From a virus, in the IMG/VR virus record IMGVR_UViG_3300008262_000400, positions 1 through 27,558 of that record: a DNA stretch of 27,558 nt, one strand, 5' to 3'. The translations under genes and the position numbers were made by a program. The notes under the pieces were generated by a model that saw only the letters and a program-made list of their open reading frames with translations, had not been told where the DNA came from and did no database searches. Shown one piece after another: positions 531 through 9,179 of this stretch (positions are counted from its first letter, which is position 1; each line of letters starts with the position of its first letter).

Positions 531-1079
531 GAAAAATTTAGTAGCGGTGTTTGTATAGACCCCGTGGTTTTTGAGATGAGTGTAAGAAAAATGGACTTGT
601 TCTTGTGTGGTACCCATAAGTAGAGGCTCAGGACGCACGTCACGCGACGCACGGCCACGCCACCCCGTCACCCGTCATAGCACCCGCATCGCACTCCGCG
701 CCCGCACAGTCCCTATGGGACAGAGATCGACAGATTTTGTGGTTTGATGATGAGATGGATGGCACGGGGTAAATGTACGTATTTCCTAGGGAAACGTGCG
801 TGATTTACTGAAATCTGTTTTCGTCATATCCAAAACTTCAATTGTTTCAACACCTTGCATAATGCGTATATTGACTATCCCTACCTATTTATCCCTTATA
901 TGAAACCCTGTAAGGGTCGTGTGTGGGATGTCGTGCCAAGGGCTTTTCCGGCTTAACCTTCGATTCAACCCCAAAACAACACCTATTTTCAACTTTTTTA
1001 CGTAGTAATACCGGCCAAATCGAAAAAAGTACTTGACACAGCATCAACTTTCTGTTCAACTTCAAATCGTCAATTCGGC

Positions 1080-1499
1080 AACAAACCGAAAGCAGACTCA
1101 GTAAGTGCTAAAGCACTGTGTGGCAGATAGGCCGAGACCCTTCGGGGAGTAAGCAAAACCACAAAGTGACGCATCGAACAAGTCTCTTGACCCCAACGGC
1201 GGGATGTAGCGTCGGACTCCGGAGGAGTTGTAGCACGGTGTGAACCGTCCATCAAACAACACCGAAGGGTCGGTTCAAGGCTTTAGCCTTGTGTCCTAGA
1301 GGCCTCGACTTCATGCAGGTAGCTTCCCTTAAGGAAGAGGTTGCATCGAGCATCGAGATAAACACAGACTTTAGTCTGTCAACACTCAACAGAGTTTCAA
1401 CGGTATGGCAGTCTCTGACTGCTATGCACTGGACGCTCTGTCCTGTCCTTAGAGGCTCTGCCTCTATTTCGCAACTAATCGCATTCGAAAGGAAATCCC
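1080..1499 (+). promoter_or_regulatory. Hairpin-rich leader upstream of the ATPase gene
   Basis: This untranslated stretch contains a run of short perfect hairpins: 1104-1117 (loop TAAA), 1138-1147 (CCC stem closed by a TTCG tetraloop), 1276-1291 (loop TTTA), 1323-1337, 1364-1379 (loop TTTA), 1384-1395, 1408-1422 (loop TCT) and 1451-1465 (loop TCT). It ends in AAAGGAAA just before the ATG at 1500. It looks like a structured 5' leader or a processed RNA. The chain of hairpins continues without a break into the coding sequence. No ligand-binding riboswitch class is recognisable. Confidence 0.5.
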
Positions 1500-2657
1500 A
1501 TGCGTGACCATCTCCTGACTCTCGGCAAAGCCGAAATCATTTGGATTTTTCGCCAACTTAACGGCGGTACTGCCGGTTTCAACTTCGACCCAATTCAGAA
1601 ACCTGAATTGATCGACCGTCTCTTTTTGACCTACTCCGAAGATCAAATCCAATCAGCCATTTCTAATGGCTTTCCTGCCAACTTGACCCCTAAAGGGGTC
1701 GCTATCGACGACGAAGGAGTCCCTGTGCCGCCACTCACAAAGCCTACGGCTTCCAAAGCATCCGATTCTGATGCTCTCGATGCTCTCCGTAAATTACTGT
1801 CTCCGACAGTAGACGAAGCAACTGTTCGACAGATTGTCATGGCCGAAGTCAAGAAAGCGATGGACGATAGTCCAGTCGTCAAGATCGAGGTCGTAAGACC
1901 TGACGGCTCAACCCACAAAGTGGAAGGTCACGTCAGACCAGAATTTAAGAAAATTCTGACCAGAGCATCCATCGGTATCAACATTCTGTTGGTCGGCCCT
2001 GCCGGATGCGGCAAGACTCACTTAGCTCACCAAGTAGCTGAAGCTCTTGGTAGACCCTTTGCTTCGGTGTCTTGTACTGCCGGAATGTCAGAGTCAGCCC
2101 TTCAGGGCTGGTTGATTCCCGGCGAAAACAACGGTGCTTTTGAGTATCTGTCCTCTGACTTTGTCAGAATGTATGAGCAGGGCGGTGTCTTTCTGTTCGA
2201 TGAAATCGACGGCTCAGACAGCAATACCTTGCTGTTCATGAATCAGGCTCTCGCCAATGGATCGTTCTTTTTGCCGATCCGGAAAGGGGCTTCACTGGTC
2301 AAACGTCACCCCGATTTTGTCTGTATGGCCGCCGCCAATACCTTCGGTACTGGAGCAAATCAGACTTATGCCGGTCGTGAACGACTCGATGAGTCGACAC
2401 TGGACAGATTTCGTGCCGGTGTCGTTTCACTGGACTATGACCAAACTTTCGAAAGAAAGTCTGTAGCACCTGACCTGTTGGCTTGGGGTTGGGCGATTCG
2501 TAAACGAATCAGCGAGTCACGTCTCCGTCGGGTTATGTCAACTCGATTCCTCCTTGATGCAACTAAGTTGCTCAAGGCCGGTGAGACTGTCGAAGAGATC
2601 AAGGCTACCTTCTTTGAAGGTTGGTCGTCCGATGAAATCAAGAAAGTAGAGGTCTGA
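1500..2657 (+). CDS. MoxR/CobS-like AAA+ ATPase
   Basis: This 385-residue protein is an AAA+ ATPase of the MoxR/CobS type. Walker A is GPAGCGKT (about residues 166-173), Walker B is VFLFDEID (230-237), a sensor-1-like AANT follows at about 279, and LDRFR near 301 fits an arginine-finger region. Residues 1-130 form an unrecognised N-terminal domain with a helical stretch. Such ATPases typically remodel a VWA-domain partner, and the next gene encodes a VWA-like protein one base downstream. CobS-like ATPases occur in other phages, where their role is unclear. AAAGGAAA at about 1488-1495 supports this start. The coding sequence is full of synonymous-compatible hairpins, which is highly unusual. 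Family assignment is sure; the substrate is unknown. Confidence 0.92.
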   Translation: MRDHLLTLGKAEIIWIFRQLNGGTAGFNFDPIQKPELIDRLFLTYSEDQIQSAISNGFPANLTPKGVAIDDEGVPVPPLTKPTASKASDSDALDALRKLLSPTVDEATVRQIVMAEVKKAMDDSPVVKIEVVRPDGSTHKVEGHVRPEFKKILTRASIGINILLVGPAGCGKTHLAHQVAEALGRPFASVSCTAGMSESALQGWLIPGENNGAFEYLSSDFVRMYEQGGVFLFDEIDGSDSNTLLFMNQALANGSFFLPIRKGASLVKRHPDFVCMAAANTFGTGANQTYAGRERLDESTLDRFRAGVVSLDYDQTFERKSVAPDLLAWGWAIRKRISESRLRRVMSTRFLLDATKLLKAGETVEEIKATFFEGWSSDEIKKVEV

Positions 2658-2671
2658 AATGCTCCGCATTT
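2657..2671 (+). promoter_or_regulatory. Hairpin enclosing the start codon of the VWA-like gene
   Basis: AAATGC and GCATTT form a perfect 6-bp stem around loop TCC. The 5' arm contains the ATG at 2659 and the last base of the upstream stop codon. AGAGG at about 2648-2652 is the likely ribosome-binding site and lies just outside the stem. Folding would occlude the start codon unless ribosomes finishing the ATPase gene open it, which suggests translational coupling. Confidence 0.6.
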
Positions 2672-3534
2672 ATGATGAATCACAGCACCTGACTACTGTC
2701 CTTTGGGACAGTGTGACAGAACCCGAGGCTCTGCTTAAAGCAGACGGTTGGAACCACGAAGCAAATAAGTCCTCTGGACTTAATCACTTCACTAGAAAAG
2801 CTGAGACATCATGGCTCGGTGTCCCATCTGTCGATGCTCTCCGTAAGGTCTTAACCAAAGGTTGGAAGGCCGGTGTCGAGCGAATCGAGAAGATTCCCCT
2901 TGGGGAATTGCCCGAACCGACAAGCATCCGTCGTCGTCGAGTCCGCGCCGATCAAGGCGACGAGCTTGATATGCAGGCCGTGTACCGAGGTGACATGAGC
3001 AGGGCTTGGTCTAAGACCAAGCGACAGAGCAGAACATCTGTCCGATCTGTCTCGATTGTGATCGACCTTGCCGGAAATGCCGGTGTCTCTTCAGAACAAT
3101 TGTTCTGGAGAGGTGCATCCGGTCTTCGACTGGCCGACGAATTGACCAAGGCGGGCTACTCTGTAGCCATCTACGGTGCGGCTGGTGCGGCGAACGTATC
3201 CAACGAAGGCCATGAGGACTTGGTGCAGTTTGTCGAAATCAAGGCAGAGGATTCTCCTCTGGACATGGACAGATTGGCCGCTCTGACTGGACTGGCTGGG
3301 TTCTTTAGAACCTCACTGTTTGCCGGTATCTACTGGTCTTGTGACCAACTCGGCAAGCATGCCGCTGGCGGTCTCGGTCAATCAGATAACACGCTGATTG
3401 CCAAGGCAATTAAGCAGATGCCGATTCCACAGAATTCGATCATCCAACCTCCGGTTAAGACTCAGGAACGGGCTGAGGAATGGTTGAAATCTGTTCTCGA
3501 ACAGATCGCCAACCCTGAACAGCAGGCCGCATGA
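2659..3534 (+). CDS. VWA-like partner of the MoxR/CobS ATPase
   Basis: This 291-residue protein has a basic middle segment (about 87-125, rich in Arg and Lys). A beta-strand VSIVIDLAGNAG (131-142) then resembles the first strand and metal-site loop of a von Willebrand A fold, although the classic DxSxS is degenerate to DLAGN. A helix (ADELTKAGYSVAIYGA) and second strand follow, as expected for VWA. The C-terminus is helical and charged. Gene order (ATPase then VWA, one-base gap) matches MoxR-VWA and CobS-CobT pairs, in which the ATPase acts on the VWA protein. The gene is at least as hairpin-dense as its neighbour. The VWA assignment is inferred from the strand pattern plus context; a structure prediction would decide it. 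Confidence 0.72.
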   Translation: MLRIYDESQHLTTVLWDSVTEPEALLKADGWNHEANKSSGLNHFTRKAETSWLGVPSVDALRKVLTKGWKAGVERIEKIPLGELPEPTSIRRRRVRADQGDELDMQAVYRGDMSRAWSKTKRQSRTSVRSVSIVIDLAGNAGVSSEQLFWRGASGLRLADELTKAGYSVAIYGAAGAANVSNEGHEDLVQFVEIKAEDSPLDMDRLAALTGLAGFFRTSLFAGIYWSCDQLGKHAAGGLGQSDNTLIAKAIKQMPIPQNSIIQPPVKTQERAEEWLKSVLEQIANPEQQAA

Positions 3535-3540
3535 TGGGAT

Positions 3541-3595
3541 GGCAGGGGTAACCCTGCCCCTCTGCCTGTCCATTCAATGAGTGGATAGACAGAGG
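3541..3595 (+). promoter_or_regulatory. Two back-to-back hairpins between genes
   Basis: The first hairpin, 3541-3558, has perfect 7-bp GC-rich arms (GGCAGGG and CCCTGCC) and a GTAA tetraloop of the GNRA type. The second, 3559-3595, pairs CCTCTG with CAGAGG and continues, after one mismatch, through about nine further pairs including two G-T wobbles, closing a 7-nt loop. Neither is followed by a T-tract, so a classical terminator is unlikely. They may act as an RNA-processing or stability element that closes the hairpin-dense segment. Confidence 0.7.
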
Positions 3596-3623
3596 CATCC
3601 CGCCTCACATGAAAGGAACATAC

Positions 3624-3887
3624 ATGATTAGCGATCACGTTCACATCACAAAGCACATAGCTTTGTCTCTGACAGCGGATGACTGGGAGCTTTACCACAT
3701 CGACGGTAGAGAGGATGCCGCCAACTGTTTGAATCAAGCAGTGGCCGTAGCCTTGAACAGATCTGTCCTGAAAAGTCAGGCTAGAACACAAATCGAAGCG
3801 GCTCTCAATGAGTACCGTCAATGGGGTGCTGATGACACCGAAGGTCATGCCACGGTGCAACGGATTTGGGATTTGTTCTACAAATAA
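3624..3887 (+). CDS. Small hypothetical phage protein
   Basis: The 87-residue product is not recognised. It is mildly acidic, with a helical middle (LNQAVAVALNRSVLKSQ) and a C-terminus ending in IWDLFYK. The start at 3624 is chosen because AAAGGA lies six bases upstream, whereas the earlier in-frame ATG at 3609 has no ribosome-binding site. It is the first small gene after the hairpin pair and precedes a zinc-ribbon gene by nine bases. Confidence 0.7.
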   Translation: MISDHVHITKHIALSLTADDWELYHIDGREDAANCLNQAVAVALNRSVLKSQARTQIEAALNEYRQWGADDTEGHATVQRIWDLFYK

Positions 3888-3896
3888 GGAGCGACT

Positions 3897-4187
3897 ATGA
3901 AAACCTACAAAGGAACGGTAGTCTTTCGATATTACCAACAGGTAACTATCGATGCTGAAAACGAAGACCAAGCAAAGCGAATGATGCTTGATGCCCCCTT
4001 TATATGCAAGATAAAGGATGGGGAAAGCGAGGTACTCGACCTCACTGTGGCGAGTGAAAAGGTCGAGTGTCCATGCTGTGACCCATGCAATCCAGAAATG
4101 GATGAGCAAGGCCGCCCGTATACATGCTTTGCCTGTGGAAACACTGGCTGGGTCAACGTCGAACCAACAGAAAAGGAACAGATATGA
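3897..4187 (+). CDS. Small zinc-ribbon-like protein
   Basis: This 96-residue protein has a beta-rich N-terminal half (KTYKGTVVFRYYQQVTI) and a C-terminal cysteine cluster. CPCC with a further Cys (about residues 59-65) is followed by CFACG (about 77-81), which would make a compact zinc ribbon. AAGGAG five bases before the ATG is one of the best ribosome-binding sites in the window. Its stop overlaps the next start (ATGA). The coding sequence contains a long hairpin at 4034-4068. Function unknown; nucleic-acid binding is possible. Confidence 0.78.
   Translation: MKTYKGTVVFRYYQQVTIDAENEDQAKRMMLDAPFICKIKDGESEVLDLTVASEKVECPCCDPCNPEMDEQGRPYTCFACGNTGWVNVEPTEKEQI
4034..4068 (+). repeat. Bulged long hairpin inside the zinc-ribbon gene
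   Basis: ACTCGACC (4034-4041) pairs with GGTCGAGT (4061-4068), and inner TCACT (4042-4046) pairs with AGTGA (4053-4057). This leaves a 6-nt loop and an AAA bulge, giving 13 base pairs in all. A further hairpin with 7-bp arms and a 7-nt loop lies just upstream at 3997-4017. Confidence 0.65.
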
Positions 4188-4381
4188 GAGTGAATATTAT
4201 GTTTGGCTTAGGCCATGTCCATTCGGTGGAGCAGTACATGGAGACCGTCCGCTTATTGCAGTCTGCTATTGCAGAACTCACACAGCACCCCGACCCAATG
4301 AAACCTAAGACCGCAATTATTTTGCGAGACACCAACGGTAACCGCGTTGGTGTGATTGACATACTGGAGGACAGGCAATGA
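4184..4381 (+). CDS. Small hypothetical protein
   Basis: This 65-residue product begins at the ATG overlapping the previous stop (ATGA), with AAAAGGAA upstream. The N-terminal half is helical. The C-terminal part, TAIILRDTNGNRVGVIDIL, looks like two beta strands joined by a turn. No family is recognised. It is likely translated by coupling with its neighbours. Confidence 0.68.
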   Translation: MRVNIMFGLGHVHSVEQYMETVRLLQSAIAELTQHPDPMKPKTAIILRDTNGNRVGVIDILEDRQ

Positions 4382-4638
4382 AGTATTTCACTCAAGCGCA
4401 ACTCATTGTTGCGTCCCTACTTGCAGAGAAGAGGGGCTACAACCGACAGATCGAAACAGATTTGCTCTGGAAAAACACGAAGGCCACGGATAAATTCCCT
4501 GTGCTTTTCTCGATGTCACATGAGCATGCCGGTGGTGTGCCATGTGATCTCCACATGCGGTGCATCATCGAGATCGATGGTGAATCTGTTCAGATCGACA
4601 CCGACATGGAAATTTACGAAACACTGGAGGATGTGTGA
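4378..4638 (+). CDS. Small hypothetical protein
   Basis: The 86-residue product starts in an ATGA overlap with the upstream gene, preceded by GGAGG. The N-terminus is helical and the C-terminal half is beta-rich and acidic (CIIEIDGESVQIDTDM). No family is recognised. Confidence 0.66.
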   Translation: MKYFTQAQLIVASLLAEKRGYNRQIETDLLWKNTKATDKFPVLFSMSHEHAGGVPCDLHMRCIIEIDGESVQIDTDMEIYETLEDV

Positions 4639-4639
4639 C

Positions 4640-4891
4640 GTGTGGCTGACCCCACATGAGGTAGTGGGTAGGCTCGTGCTTGTGCTGGCTCTGGCTGGCG
4701 TAGGTGCGAACCTACTGGCAAAGCCTGATACACAACTCACGACCGAGCAACTACAAAAGATCGGGAAGCAACGCTCAAAGGACAAAGCGAACGCAAGACT
4801 AGAGCGAAAAAAACAAAAACTTAAAAGGAAAAAAGATGACAATGCAAAGCATTCAATTGGCTACTGTAAGCGGTGTGGTATCTATGATTGA
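4640..4891 (+). CDS. Small single-pass membrane protein with basic tail
   Basis: The predicted protein of about 83 residues has one hydrophobic segment near the N-terminus (VVGRLVLVLALAGVGANLL). A very Lys/Arg-rich helical stretch (about residues 40-68) and a terminal CKRCG motif follow. I prefer the GTG at 4640, which lies nine bases after GGAGG; the ATG at 4631 directly abuts that GGAGG and would add three residues. The 3' end overlaps the next gene by 56 bases, which lowers confidence. It could be a small inner-membrane effector; no family is recognised. Confidence 0.5.
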   Translation: MWLTPHEVVGRLVLVLALAGVGANLLAKPDTQLTTEQLQKIGKQRSKDKANARLERKKQKLKRKKDDNAKHSIGYCKRCGIYD

Positions 4892-5078
4892 GAAGGTCGC
4901 TGACGAAGCCATCAAGAACAACACGAAGACACCCGAAGGAATGATGTCTGCGATGGATGCAGTGTGCAATCTACTCGAGGCCAAGGGCAAGGATGACAAA
5001 CAGATACTCGCTGTGGTTGCCAAGGTAAGACAAGCATGTAACCTGAAGAAAGGAAAGTCCAATGACTCACTCGTCTAA
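4836..5078 (+). CDS. Small helical hypothetical protein
   Basis: This 80-residue protein is predicted to be largely helical, with a regular pattern around IEKVADEAIKNN and ILAVVAKVRQACN and a basic C-terminus. AAAAGGAAA precedes the ATG; a second ATG two codons later is an equally good start. It overlaps both neighbours. No family is recognised. Confidence 0.66.
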   Translation: MTMQSIQLATVSGVVSMIEKVADEAIKNNTKTPEGMMSAMDAVCNLLEAKGKDDKQILAVVAKVRQACNLKKGKSNDSLV

Positions 5079-5283
5079 AAGAACCATCACCATCGACGCT
5101 GACTATGAACCTCCGTCTGTCAACAGATGGACTCCCGAAGATGACCTAGCGCAGAAACTCTATGCCCCTCATCCAATTGATGAAGAGCATGTAGCCAATG
5201 CGTCGTGGTCTGATGACCTGTTCCTTGGTGTGCTACTGATCGCAGTCATGCCGGTTGCAGTATTTGTTCTCCTCGCTTACTGA
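5062..5283 (+). CDS. Small C-terminal-anchored membrane protein
   Basis: The 73-residue product has a polar N-terminal part of about 50 residues followed by one hydrophobic segment at the very C-terminus (LFLGVLLIAVMPVAVFVLLAY), so it is probably tail-anchored in the inner membrane. AGAAAGGAAAG lies upstream of the ATG. It lacks holin or spanin hallmarks and sits among early-type genes, so a lysis role is not supported. Confidence 0.66.
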   Translation: MTHSSKRTITIDADYEPPSVNRWTPEDDLAQKLYAPHPIDEEHVANASWSDDLFLGVLLIAVMPVAVFVLLAY

Positions 5284-5294
5284 AAGGAAATCAC

Positions 5295-5648
5295 ATGCGA
5301 GCTTTTTTAATTGACCCATTCCGTCAAGAAGTTACCGAAGTCGAATACTCCGGAGACTACAAACAGATTTGCAAACTGATTGACGCAGATCTGTTCGACG
5401 TTGCTCGACTCAACGCAAAGGGCGATGGCATATTTGTGGATGACGAAGGTCTGTACGCTGAAGATCAGCGGTTCTTTCAACACAAGTTTTACCCCAACCC
5501 ACTGGCTGGCAAGGGTCTGGTGCTTGGCTGTGACATGGACACTGGGGAATCTGCCCCTGCATCCATGACACTGGAGCAATTGGTAGATGACATTGAATGG
5601 GTGATGCCCATTCGAGTAAACGGGGAGGTCGTATGGATAAATGCTTAA
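5295..5648 (+). CDS. Hypothetical phage protein, possibly DUF3846-like
   Basis: This is a 117-residue acidic protein. The pattern of an N-terminal strand (MRAFLIDPF), IFVDDEGLYA in the middle, and YPNPLAGKGLVLG after it recalls small phage/plasmid proteins of the DUF3846 type. I assign this only by pattern memory. GAAAGGAAA precedes the ATG. No catalytic motif is visible. Confidence 0.68.
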   Translation: MRAFLIDPFRQEVTEVEYSGDYKQICKLIDADLFDVARLNAKGDGIFVDDEGLYAEDQRFFQHKFYPNPLAGKGLVLGCDMDTGESAPASMTLEQLVDDIEWVMPIRVNGEVVWINA

Positions 5649-5671
5649 ACAAACTCACAGGAGCAAACACA

Positions 5672-6364
5672 ATGAACTTTGTTACACACAATGAACGCGA
5701 GTCTCTCGCTGATGAAACCAGTGGCTCATCACTGGTCGGCACTGTCGACGCAAGTTACAAGGAGATCTGTTCTCTGTTCGGTAAGCCAATACGCTATAAG
5801 GAAGGGAAGGTAGACGCTATGTGGGTCGTGAAGTTTAGCGACGACACTGTCGCCTCGATCTACAACTGGAAAGATGGCATGGCTTTTCTTGGGACAGATG
5901 GTTTGCCTGTCGAGAAGATCAAGCACTGGCACATTGGTGGCCTCGACAAAGCGGCAAGCACACTGGTGCAGATCACGTTAGACCTGAAGCGAGAGTCGAA
6001 GGAGCAGACAGATAACGGCCCATTCGAGGGGGCTTTCTCCATGATGGAGAACATAGTCAAGACCAAGGGCGATAAGTATGCCGCATTGGTGGAGTTGACC
6101 ATGCTCACCATGAAGCGCAAGCAACTGTTGGAAATGGTGATCGAGTTTCTGGAACAGAAAACAGACATGCCAAAGAGGGTGAAAAGGATTCTCGAAGAGA
6201 TGGACACAGAGCTTTGTGTCCGCACAATCTCAAGAGCATGCCACGCATCCGGCATCGACTTTGACGACAGAGACAAGGCCAACGAACTGATGGAGTGGGC
6301 GGCACAGATCGTCGCCCAAGAAGTCGACGGCATCAAAGAGGTACTTAAGAAAGAAGGCAAGTGA
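5672..6364 (+). CDS. Hypothetical phage protein with helical C-terminus
   Basis: The product is 230 residues when started at 5672, which has AGGAG nine bases upstream; an earlier in-frame ATG at 5597 lies inside the preceding gene and lacks a site. The N-terminal third (about 25-95) has the pattern YKEICSLFGKP, then WVVKFSDDTVASIYNWKD, then a WHIGG word. I have seen this arrangement in phage proteins of unknown function. The remainder is helical. Without a named family or catalytic signature I give no role. Confidence 0.75.
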   Translation: MNFVTHNERESLADETSGSSLVGTVDASYKEICSLFGKPIRYKEGKVDAMWVVKFSDDTVASIYNWKDGMAFLGTDGLPVEKIKHWHIGGLDKAASTLVQITLDLKRESKEQTDNGPFEGAFSMMENIVKTKGDKYAALVELTMLTMKRKQLLEMVIEFLEQKTDMPKRVKRILEEMDTELCVRTISRACHASGIDFDDRDKANELMEWAAQIVAQEVDGIKEVLKKEGK

Positions 6365-6365
6365 G

Positions 6366-6563
6366 ATGATTGACCTCCGCTTAGAGCGGGGTCATGTCTC
6401 TTTGACTGTCGCATCACAACTCATGGGTGTGTCGCGCCAACGTGTGCATCAGCTACTCAAGGCTGGGCGCATTGTTGGCGCGTTCCTCATGGACTGTGGC
6501 GATGGTCGGGAGATATGGTGCATCCCTCGCAACTCACTAAAAATAAAGGACAGGCCATGCTAG
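6366..6563 (+). CDS. Small helix-turn-helix DNA-binding protein
   Basis: The central segment SLTVASQLMGVSRQRVHQLL of this 65-residue protein is a clear helix-turn-helix, followed by a wing-like stretch (GREIWCIP) as in MerR/excisionase-type small proteins. It is probably a phage regulator. It starts one base after the preceding stop and overlaps the next small gene by seven bases. Confidence 0.75.
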   Translation: MIDLRLERGHVSLTVASQLMGVSRQRVHQLLKAGRIVGAFLMDCGDGREIWCIPRNSLKIKDRPC

Positions 6564-6688
6564 ATGTTATTGGCGTGATATTCATGCTGTTCATGGGCGC
6601 ATCCATTGTCATTGTCATTGGGGCAGTGGCTATATGGCTGGGCGAAACAACATACAAGCGCAACAAACGAAAGGGGAAAGTCTGGTGA
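6557..6688 (+). CDS. Tiny single-pass membrane protein
   Basis: This 43-residue frame has AAAGGA about eight bases before its ATG. It encodes one long hydrophobic segment (VIGVIFMLFMGASIVIVIG and onward to AIWLG) followed by a basic tail (KRNKRKGK). Inferred topology: N-terminus out, positive tail in the cytoplasm. The stop overlaps the next start as GTGA. It may be a small membrane toxin-like or exclusion peptide, but nothing proves that. Confidence 0.62.
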   Translation: MLDVIGVIFMLFMGASIVIVIGAVAIWLGETTYKRNKRKGKVW

Positions 6689-6861
6689 TTGAAAAGATTC
6701 GCACATTCTTCGGGAAGGTTCGTGGTCAACACGAAAACAAACGGACAGTGGTCATCGAATCTGTTGCTTGGTATTGTGCCAAGTGCAAACAAGTCTGGCT
6801 CGACAGAGACGAGGCTTACTTCCATACATGTAAAGGAAAACAAAATGCAAGCAGAACTTAG
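6685..6861 (+). CDS. Small Cys/His protein, zinc-finger-like
   Basis: Started at the GTG overlapping the previous stop, with GGGGAAAG upstream, the product is 58 residues. It contains WYCAKCKQVW followed about 15 residues later by FHTC, a C2HC-type zinc-finger spacing. The basic N-terminus would suit nucleic-acid binding. An upstream in-frame ATG at 6634 lies deep in the preceding gene and is less likely. Confidence 0.62.
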   Translation: MIEKIRTFFGKVRGQHENKRTVVIESVAWYCAKCKQVWLDRDEAYFHTCKGKQNASRT

Positions 6862-7267
6862 AGTTGGTGGCACTGCTCACCGTGTGCTATCTGTGCTGGC
6901 GGCCAAAGGAAACATGAGTGCGCCTATGATTAAGAAGACCGGCATCATTGCCGGTAAGACCTTGGTCGACATAGAGAACGCGATTGTTTATGAACTACTG
7001 CCGAAAGGCTTTGTGATGTTGGTCAATGAAATGTTCTACGGCCTCACACAAAAAGGACTCGACATGAAGATCGAGCTTGGCGGTTTGGATAAGTTGTTCA
7101 AGGCTCCACGCAAAACTGTCTTGGCACAACAGAACGATCTGTTCGCAAGAGGAACATACGAAGGGACAGAGTTACGTAGTACCTGCATGAGGCGGGGTGC
7201 GTATGACGCATACAACCTGCCGTCCCTGACTTTCTCCGGCCTCACATACAGAAAGGTTCCTCTATGA
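6845..7267 (+). CDS. Phage protein with winged-helix-like N-terminus
   Basis: Started at the ATG at 6845 (AAAGGAAAA upstream) it is 140 residues. Residues 10-70 (AHRVLSVLAAKGNMSAPMI, then NAIVYELLPKGFVMLV, then YGLTQKGLD) follow the helix-helix-helix-wing order of a winged-helix fold. The C-terminus STCMRRGAYDAYNLPSLTF matches a tail I associate with other phage proteins (a GA-D-A-LPS pattern). It may be a DNA-binding regulator. It overlaps both neighbours slightly. Confidence 0.7.
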   Translation: MQAELRVGGTAHRVLSVLAAKGNMSAPMIKKTGIIAGKTLVDIENAIVYELLPKGFVMLVNEMFYGLTQKGLDMKIELGGLDKLFKAPRKTVLAQQNDLFARGTYEGTELRSTCMRRGAYDAYNLPSLTFSGLTYRKVPL

Positions 7268-7455
7268 ATACCGACAGAGAAGTCTACATCGAGAAGGTGC
7301 TTGAAGAATTCAGGCCGAAGACTGGGACGCTGATGATCATGCTCTCTCTGAAAGAGTACGAGGACTTGGTCAGACTCATTGGCGACCGAGCATACGAGTA
7401 CGGCTGGATTGAGGGAATGGCTGACGCAAGGTACGCGAAGAAGTCAAACGCTTAA
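7264..7455 (+). CDS. Small hypothetical protein, last gene of the left operon
   Basis: This 63-residue acidic, mainly helical product starts in an ATGA overlap. Its 3' end overlaps the converging minus-strand gene by 12 bases, and no terminator hairpin is visible between the two operons. No family is recognised. Confidence 0.66.
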   Translation: MNTDREVYIEKVLEEFRPKTGTLMIMLSLKEYEDLVRLIGDRAYEYGWIEGMADARYAKKSNA

Positions 7456-7938
7456 CTCGAACCCACCCTCAGCAAACATCTGTCCATGTAATTTTTCTAT
7501 GGCTCTGATCTGCACTGGCATCCAAGCACGAAGGACAGCGTTGCGCCAGTTGCAGACTTGCCTATAACTTACACCCCTCTCCTCTGCAATCTTCCGTATG
7601 CTTGGTCGTTTTGTAGACCAGTGCAACAGAATGATCTGCAACTCACGGACACTAGGCACAGTACCACGCACAAAGTAGTGCAAGTAATTAGCGAAACCTC
7701 TTATCGCATCTGACCTAGCCCGACCTCTCCCATACATTGAAAGTATTGAGTCCCTCTCCACCTGATGCAATCTGTTCAGCATCGAATGAATCATTGCGGC
7801 CTGAGCATGCAAGTCCATCGGGGATAAGTCATCCTGACTGGTTCCCCGAGTCCCGAGTAAGTCTGTTCGGCTGAACTCTTCCCTCTCGCTCACGTTGAAC
7901 GAGAACTTGATCGCCTGTTCGACACTGTGGAATTTCAT
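7444..7938 (-). CDS. Phage HTH protein, antiterminator/regulator-like
   Basis: The 164-residue protein is helical with a C-terminal helix-turn-helix (SIRKIAEERGVSYRQVCNW, about residues 111-129). The LSPMDLHAQAAMI stretch at about 38-50 and the overall build recall small late-gene regulators found after RusA in phage replication operons. The position, last in the operon right after a RusA gene, supports a role in delayed-early to late control, as with Q-type antiterminators, but this is inference. The start is in an ATGA overlap with RusA. Confidence 0.7.
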   Translation of the reverse strand: MKFHSVEQAIKFSFNVSEREEFSRTDLLGTRGTSQDDLSPMDLHAQAAMIHSMLNRLHQVERDSILSMYGRGRARSDAIRGFANYLHYFVRGTVPSVRELQIILLHWSTKRPSIRKIAEERGVSYRQVCNWRNAVLRAWMPVQIRAIEKLHGQMFAEGGFELSV

Positions 7939-8330
7939 ATCCAGTCTTTGTCCTCTGTGATCGTTACATGAAGGCCGCCACCTGCAATGGGCTGTCCAAG
8001 TTTAATGGACAGAAAAGTTATCTGTCTGTCGTTCTCATACACGATACCCTGTAGCGCATCTAGCGCAACCTTCTCGGCGTTATCAATATCAATCCGCCGC
8101 ACAGTCAATCCCCACAATCTGTCCTTCTTCTCTCGCTTCTCTGCATCTGCTGGCCTCACTGGATGGAGAACCAGCATCACCATCACCGGCACTGTGAACA
8201 GAGTCAGCCCGTTGGATCGGGCGATCCATCCCACCTCATCCTTGTACGCGATTGCCGCGCTACTCCTGACCATGCGACCTCGGAAGTTTCTCCAGTAGAC
8301 ATTGGTGCTGATGGGGTAGGGAAGCATCAT
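7935..8330 (-). CDS. rusA: RusA-family Holliday-junction resolvase
   Basis: This 131-residue protein has the RusA layout. The N-terminus MLPYPISTNVYWR matches the family's PPS-N-YWR opening. The metal-binding set RIDIDN (Asp81, Asp83, Asn84), a Lys at about 87 and the Asp of ENDRQI (about 101) are all present. RusA cuts Holliday junctions and branched replication intermediates as a dimer, and in phages it resolves recombination and replication structures. The start lies in an ATGA overlap with the upstream gene. No expected key residue is missing. Confidence 0.93.
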   Translation of the reverse strand: MMLPYPISTNVYWRNFRGRMVRSSAAIAYKDEVGWIARSNGLTLFTVPVMVMLVLHPVRPADAEKREKKDRLWGLTVRRIDIDNAEKVALDALQGIVYENDRQITFLSIKLGQPIAGGGLHVTITEDKDWI

Positions 8331-8851
8331 GCCGTCTGTTCTTTCTTTGGCCTGCCTGACTTCTTCTTCGAGGCTTCGATCTTATTCATCACCTCCTCCA
8401 TTGCCTTCGTACTAGGCAACGCAACTACCGAACCAAGCATTCCCATCATTGCTTGTTCCCATCTCCTTGGGTCTTTCTTATTGTTCATGGGTATCCCAAC
8501 CACACCAACATTACTGTTGTCCGGTCGGACAAAGACTGTCTCTGGATGCTCGCACTTACCAGCCGCATGTTGCTCGTCCCTGTACGACGGAGTGCAATCC
8601 CGACAGTGTTCAACACGAACGCTCGACCTCCTGTCTGGCGCACTGCTCCACACGAATGCGACCACGTACTCAACCCACTTGCGATCACTCTCGTAGCACG
8701 ATGGCCGGGAGGGATTTGCTACCCCGGCGCTAACCAATCTGTCGAATTCTGTTCGGACAAACTCAGGCTCGTGACCAAGGCAGTATCCATAGAACCCAGC
8801 CGGATGCTCGCAGTAAATGAAACTGCATCGACGTTTCTTATTGATTTCCAA
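8327..8851 (-). CDS. Cys-rich hypothetical phage protein
   Basis: The 174-residue protein has two Cys/His clusters: RRCSFIYCEH with CLGH at the N-terminus, and HCRDCTPSY followed by GKCEHPE at about 82-104. This suggests two zinc-binding knuckles. The C-terminus is basic (KKKSGRPKKEQ, AT-hook-like GRPKK), pointing to DNA or RNA binding. The likely start is a TTG at 8851 with AAGGAG nine bases upstream; the first ATG in frame is far inside. It sits between HNH and RusA genes, so a replication or recombination role is plausible but unproven. Confidence 0.72.
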   Translation of the reverse strand: MEINKKRRCSFIYCEHPAGFYGYCLGHEPEFVRTEFDRLVSAGVANPSRPSCYESDRKWVEYVVAFVWSSAPDRRSSVRVEHCRDCTPSYRDEQHAAGKCEHPETVFVRPDNSNVGVVGIPMNNKKDPRRWEQAMMGMLGSVVALPSTKAMEEVMNKIEASKKKSGRPKKEQTA

Positions 8852-9179
8852 GATGAAGCACTCCTTCTCTTATTGCTTGCAGTAGTGTTAAGGCAACGTG
8901 TTCCAGTTGCATCCCGTTCTCTTCTTCCCAGACATGAACGTCATGGTGAAGTACGTCGTGGCATGTCCGACAGATTGGTATTACCCACCAGTCAGGAACC
9001 TTTGTCCCCATGCCCTTGAACCCTGATCCATGCGGGTGGTGCGGGTCGTCTGCCGGTGCATTGCAACTCACGCACCTCAAGGTCTTGACCCATCTTGTGT
9101 ACACGGGCGACTCCATGCGCTCGACGTACCCATTGGTCAGTGCCTGTTTGAATGTCAGGTATGGGGGAATGACTTTCAT
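8838..9179 (-). CDS. HNH/DUF968-like zinc nuclease
   Basis: This 113-residue protein has CVSC (36-39), a His-rich DDPHHPHGSG (44-53), then ICRTCHDVLHH (69-79). This matches the small DUF968/HNH type found next to RusA and helicase genes in phages, where the paired CxxC motifs hold zinc and the histidines form the active site. It may nick or process DNA during replication or recombination. The start lies in an ATGA overlap with the upstream gene. Confidence 0.82.
   Translation of the reverse strand: MKVIPPYLTFKQALTNGYVERMESPVYTRWVKTLRCVSCNAPADDPHHPHGSGFKGMGTKVPDWWVIPICRTCHDVLHHDVHVWEEENGMQLEHVALTLLQAIREGVLHLGNQ

Follow-up and report, generated by a model that had tools for sequence, protein, structure and literature searches.

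A selected array of small RNA hairpins over the start of a putative early operon in a largely uncultured group of bacterial viruses

Known hairpin systems and the locus under study

In the nut/boxB–N antitermination system of phage lambda, hairpins in the early RNA counter termination, boxB having a fixed loop bound by the N protein. RNA viruses possess ordered RNA structure on the scale of the genome and packaging-signal hairpins, dispersed in the coding sequence and kept by compensatory change. The action of lambda N is described as directed against Rho (PMC3526286). The put RNA of phage HK022, an early-leader RNA which folds as it is transcribed and needs no phage protein to suppress pausing and termination, is a single defined element binding RNA polymerase directly (PMC9378689).

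The window analysed here, i.e., the whole stretch of 27,558 nucleotides of the IMG/VR virus record IMGVR_UViG_3300008262_000400, carries a locus whose closest known functional analogue is put. The two share the early-leader location (a conserved TTGACA, from which transcription is presumed, immediately precedes the onset in the window), but the locus consists of dozens of unrelated tiny hairpins spread over 2.5–6 kb, coding DNA included, with no conserved sequence or compact fold. Unlike in boxB, no fixed loop was found, an N-like partner having been considered via gene-content comparison only. The hairpins resemble those of RNA viruses in being many, dispersed through coding sequence, and subject to compensatory changes, but they belong to a dsDNA phage, occupy the start of one transcript only, and have perfect stems of 6–8 bp with loops of 2–5 nt. 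An open-literature search for comparable hairpin arrays found nothing similar, and to our knowledge no selected RNA structure this dense has been described inside the genes of a dsDNA phage. With a probability of about 0.4, we take the locus for an array of tiny hairpins which fold fast, are under selection in the sense RNA of an early operon, and act as co-transcriptional armour for early transcription or for the mRNA.

The following features of the window are relevant:

1033–1061, + strand: putative early promoter, with TTGACA (1033–1038), on whose conservation the assignment is based, and a weak –10 box TCAACT (1056–1061)
1074–1499, + strand: untranslated leader with about 11 hairpins, the first at 1074–1090
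1104–3595, + strand: core of the hairpin array
1500–2657, + strand: array-carrying gene for a MoxR-type AAA+ ATPase (AAA_5, E 3e-18; phrog_249, E 6e-59)
2659–3534, + strand: array-carrying DUF7192 gene (PF23822, E 1e-28), the VWA gene of the initial annotation
3596–6500, + strand: fading tail of the array across small early genes, including a DUF3846 gene at 5295–5648
1685–1700, + strand: example hairpin GACCCCTaaAGGGGTC, with compensatory forms AACCCCaaaGGGGTT and CAATCCCaagGGGATTG in relatives
2218–2235, + strand: example hairpin ACAGCAAtaccTTGCTGT, compensated in relatives as ACAGTAATacATTACTGT

The VWA metal site of the DUF7192 protein appears from its sequence to be degenerate, IVIDLAGN standing in place of DxSxS. 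A 6-bp hairpin at 2657–2671 spans the start codon of this gene and may couple its translation to that of moxR.

Hairpin density in the window

Positions 1104–3595 contain 30 perfect non-overlapping hairpins with a stem of at least 6 bp and a loop of 2–5 nt, while 2.3 are expected (maximum of 8 in 500 dinucleotide shuffles). With loops of 3–5 nt the count is 27 (shuffle mean 1.95, maximum 7), and with stems of at least 5 bp and loops of 2–5 nt it rises to 45 (mean 9.1, maximum 17). These values agree well with the initial annotation, which had noted about 45 short inverted repeats, about 26 of them with perfect stems, and had estimated a random expectation of about two for loops of 3–5 nt; all ten hairpins that it named as examples are present at their exact coordinates. 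The span it gave, 1104–3595, describes the core correctly but not the limits, as the array starts near 1074 and its weaker tail reaches about 6500. In 500-base bins the excess is limited to positions of ca. 1000–5000 and this tail, the window being elsewhere at or near baseline (1.31 hairpins per kb in 7001–27558).

The count is likewise not reproduced by synonymous-codon shuffles: moxR has 12 hairpins against 1.5 and the DUF7192 gene 11 against 1.5, and an excess is also found in 24 gene copies from relatives, the weakest being that of L017. The overall folding energy, which the initial annotation had proposed as a further measure, is only moderately low, with a mean z of about –2 equal on both strands; selection on global folding energy was therefore rejected, and what stands out is local, namely the tight hairpins.

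Geometry, loops, and spacing of the hairpins

Stems are chiefly 6–8 bp long, and the enrichment depends on loop length, being 23-fold for 3-nt, 15-fold for 2-nt, 8-fold for 4-nt, and 4-fold for 5-nt loops, with no consistent enrichment for loops of at least 9 nt. Judging by loop energies, thermodynamics alone would not favour loops of 3–4 nt so strongly. The majority of triloops have a 5′C–G3′ closing pair and T as the first loop base, and the 2-nt loops are mostly closed by T..A, hence they form TNNA-type tetraloops. The loop bias reported initially is thus real, and it is strand-asymmetric (TCT occurs 19 times and AGA never). UUCG, the strongest RNA tetraloop, is not preferred in the window clade.

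Across the leader and the first pair of large genes there is one hairpin per ca. 60–80 nt. Hairpins of the window clade are seldom adjacent and the gaps between them are more even than random, the evenness being significant in some genomes only; G-poor linkers between hairpins were sought and not found.

No stem, loop, or flank motif is shared across genomes, and the loops differ between clades. A single common hairpin or flank motif was consequently rejected, and the initially suggested protein-binding array is not supported in a form with a single recognised sequence; the selected trait is a tight perfect hairpin at a given place rather than a protein-recognition motif. That the geometry is shared while the sequence is not argues for a generic physical role. 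Two other identities were discarded. Intrinsic terminators, in either direction, do not account for the hairpins, since a T-run follows 11 of 448 of them against a background of 7.8, and none was found on the + strand within 1104–3595. A known RNA family was not recognised either, Rfam covariance models giving only a sub-threshold chance match (E 0.55).

Distribution among relatives and independence from the carried genes

The array-bearing phages are bacterial viruses most of which are uncultured, and relatives of 48–100% identity display the same enrichment with different sequences. At 55–65% MoxR identity the array is found in L102–L107, L110, L111, L113–L115, L118, and L121, while it is absent from L109, L112, L119, L120, and the Limnohabitans-MAG contig L136 (52–60% MoxR identity) as well as from MoxR phages further removed. 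It was not seen in the cultured phages checked, several of which were scanned in part and the first three of which are relatives: Acinetobacter phage Mithridates, phiM5, Staphylococcus G1, Achromobacter CF418P1, Pseudomonas AF and phi1, Methylophilales MEP401/402, and Mycobacterium Marvin, nor in the environmental record ctgrD200 from the same set.

Some further structures were observed in these genomes. L053 (G005) has a second, weaker cluster of 7–9 hairpins per kb at about 8000–9000 (contig 48001–49000), in a divergent gap and in genes not far from the Erf/replication genes, and L282 (G021) shows a mild excess of 4–7 per kb at about 4000–8000, downstream of a hairpin-free distant moxR. Positions 1–250 of L057 (G006) comprise short direct repeats with varying spacers, resembling a CRISPR-type array, and their translation contains the repeated peptide LRSTLNRLCSPP.

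The array and the genes that carry it are separable in both directions. A scan with the DUF3846 gene yielded L157/L158, L160, and L162–L167, with arrays over 4–10 kb and no MoxR or VWA match, and G012–G014 possess the array and no detectable moxR. In G013/L165 it covers amidoligase-like and GATase-like genes and in other moxR-less relatives genes without identification; these phages share backbone genes with the window, e.g., that for a 1749-aa protein. Conversely, moxR/VWA without the array occur in G015, G016, L119, and L120, and moxR without it in L136. G015 shares with the window both the backbone and moxR/VWA (on a contig that stops shortly before moxR, leaving the leader out of view). 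What the array goes with is thus the promoter-proximal transcript rather than its genes, and the earlier proposal that the two proteins act on the transcript is not supported.

Variation in presence among relatives with the same backbone is what a host-dependent pressure would produce. Such a pressure could come from defence systems that are guided by RNA or cleave it (type III or VI CRISPR, toxin RNases), in which case the hairpins would put early mRNA out of reach of hybridisation or of endonucleases that attack single strands. The earliest messages are indeed those covered, and the tight loops leave almost no single strand exposed, but the linkers of 20–80 nt stay single-stranded and targetable, and we regard this explanation as unlikely, though it fares best among the alternatives.

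More doubtful is a role in trans, in which the RNA folded from the leader and first genes, present in abundance, would draw off a host RNA-binding protein as a decoy or sponge, or would itself be bound by a phage protein. The preferred closing pair and first loop base speak in its favour, as do the leaders of array-bearing relatives, which look long (ca. 0.4–2 kb, judged in the ORF listing from the gene-poor stretch ahead of the first early gene). It is at odds with the lack of a common stem or flank sequence, with loops varying by clade, and with a hairpin density in coding genes equal to that in the leader. Furthermore, no gene tracks the array, as no gene family was present in all array-bearing phages and absent from the array-free ones, the contigs compared being incomplete.

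Onset of the array and the RNA strand signature

In the window the array begins right behind a TTGACA box invariant in nine of nine aligned relatives, the distant L014 among them, and TTGACA also lies upstream of the onset in G001–G003; in genomes further removed, a clear consensus promoter was not seen at that point. Its promoter function is given as putative, because a generic promoter-consensus scan of the window did not list the site at 1033. When 13 genomes are oriented by the early operon, the density is about 2 hairpins per kb upstream, 12.6 at the onset, 11–12.5 for the next 2.5 kb, 4–5 by 4 kb, and at baseline by 6–7.5 kb; the onset was picked from the data, so the step arises partly by construction, while the long one-sided tail does not.

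Among stems of 8–9 bp with one interior non-Watson–Crick pair, G–T is enriched 3.9- and 6.9-fold, compared with 1.7- and 2.2-fold for A–C and 1.3–1.6-fold for G–G and A–G. Together with the one-sided density profile, this pattern indicates that the sense-strand RNA, not DNA, is the selected level, which favours RNA where the initial annotation had spoken of the RNA/DNA level. Substitutions in stems mostly of 6–7 bp give a different picture, G–U being disfavoured as much as A–C; we read this intolerance as a stability threshold, but nothing else strains the RNA reading as much. It is also an argument for selected hairpins in single-stranded non-template DNA (in R-loops, during replication, or on entry of a genome end), to which may be added the position of the array near a possible genome end, like that of moxR in phiM5. 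DNA, however, would treat G–T, G–G, and A–G mismatches alike, whereas the longer stems single out G–T, and the sharp onset and one-sided decay track the early transcript, which makes structure at the DNA level improbable, somewhat more so than a decoy.

Selection on the stems

At four-fold sites the stems diverge about four times less than the sequence outside in pairs more than 90% identical (0.041 versus 0.174), and 0.134 versus 0.312 in pairs 80–90% identical. Double changes restoring pairing number 11 in the closer pairs, where about 0.8 double changes of any kind are expected, and 83 against about 38 in the more divergent ones. These counts come from non-independent pairs of related sequences, but the effect sizes leave little doubt. 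In codon alignments many hairpins keep their position with an altered sequence, e.g., the two example hairpins listed above, and others are lost at orthologous positions with new ones arising nearby, so that the density is kept. Stem loss, which the initial annotation had regarded, if uncompensated, as evidence against its proposal, is thus common, but it is accompanied by replacement hairpins and a large excess of compensatory change. Given this excess and the slower synonymous evolution, the stems are selected RNA secondary structure.

Of the two processes initially considered, selection exploiting synonymous freedom stands, and a purely mutational one (hairpin-templated correction), although it could yield perfect stems and compensatory changes, is very improbable, as unbiased correction would leave the substitution rate unchanged and the array is restricted to one transcript start.

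Possible role of the array

The preferred reading, protection of the early RNA as it is made, may be outlined as follows. The early operon with its untranslated leader would be the first target of Rho and nucleases. The array starts at or near the putative transcription start, takes in the leader together with the two large genes behind it, and dwindles over some 6 kb; each hairpin would close behind RNA polymerase, leaving no long single-stranded stretch exposed. Tight loops fold fastest and expose the least single strand, and hairpins behind the polymerase resist backtracking. The early RNA of freshly entered phage DNA, long leader included, would thereby be protected from Rho, both its loading and its translocation, or from backtracking of the polymerase and, in second place, from attack by endonucleases, the array being a passive, protein-free route in cis to processivity and integrity of the transcript.

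That Rho or RNA decay is the process warded off is our inference. Rho loading takes place on unstructured, C-rich, G-poor RNA, along which Rho must translocate (PMC9160355), and a hairpin every 60–80 nt leaves few long unstructured stretches for either step. RNase shielding, shelter from RNA-guided defence, and decoy RNA are possible roles as well. Against a barrier to Rho it may be said that mean gaps of this size still leave it room in places, and that the coding part should already be shielded by translation. Against the protective reading in general, G015 does without the array on the same backbone, the loss of G–U from 6–7 bp stems as readily as A–C means that stability must act near a threshold, and neither the neglect of UUCG nor the uneven significance of the spacing is what it would lead one to expect.

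If this reading is true, phages own a protein-free protection of early transcription or mRNA. Because the array outlives the replacement of its carrier genes, gene annotation is blind to it, but a simple hairpin count detects it, and rules for designing robust synthetic transcripts could be drawn from it. Hairpins conserved regardless of the encoded genes point to an undescribed way to protect or tune a viral message. A strongly selected array, independent of gene and sequence, over the first kilobases of an early transcript would probably represent passive armour that guards nascent RNA from termination, from decay, or from immunity directed at RNA, and thus a viral RNA architecture of a new class, acting in cis.
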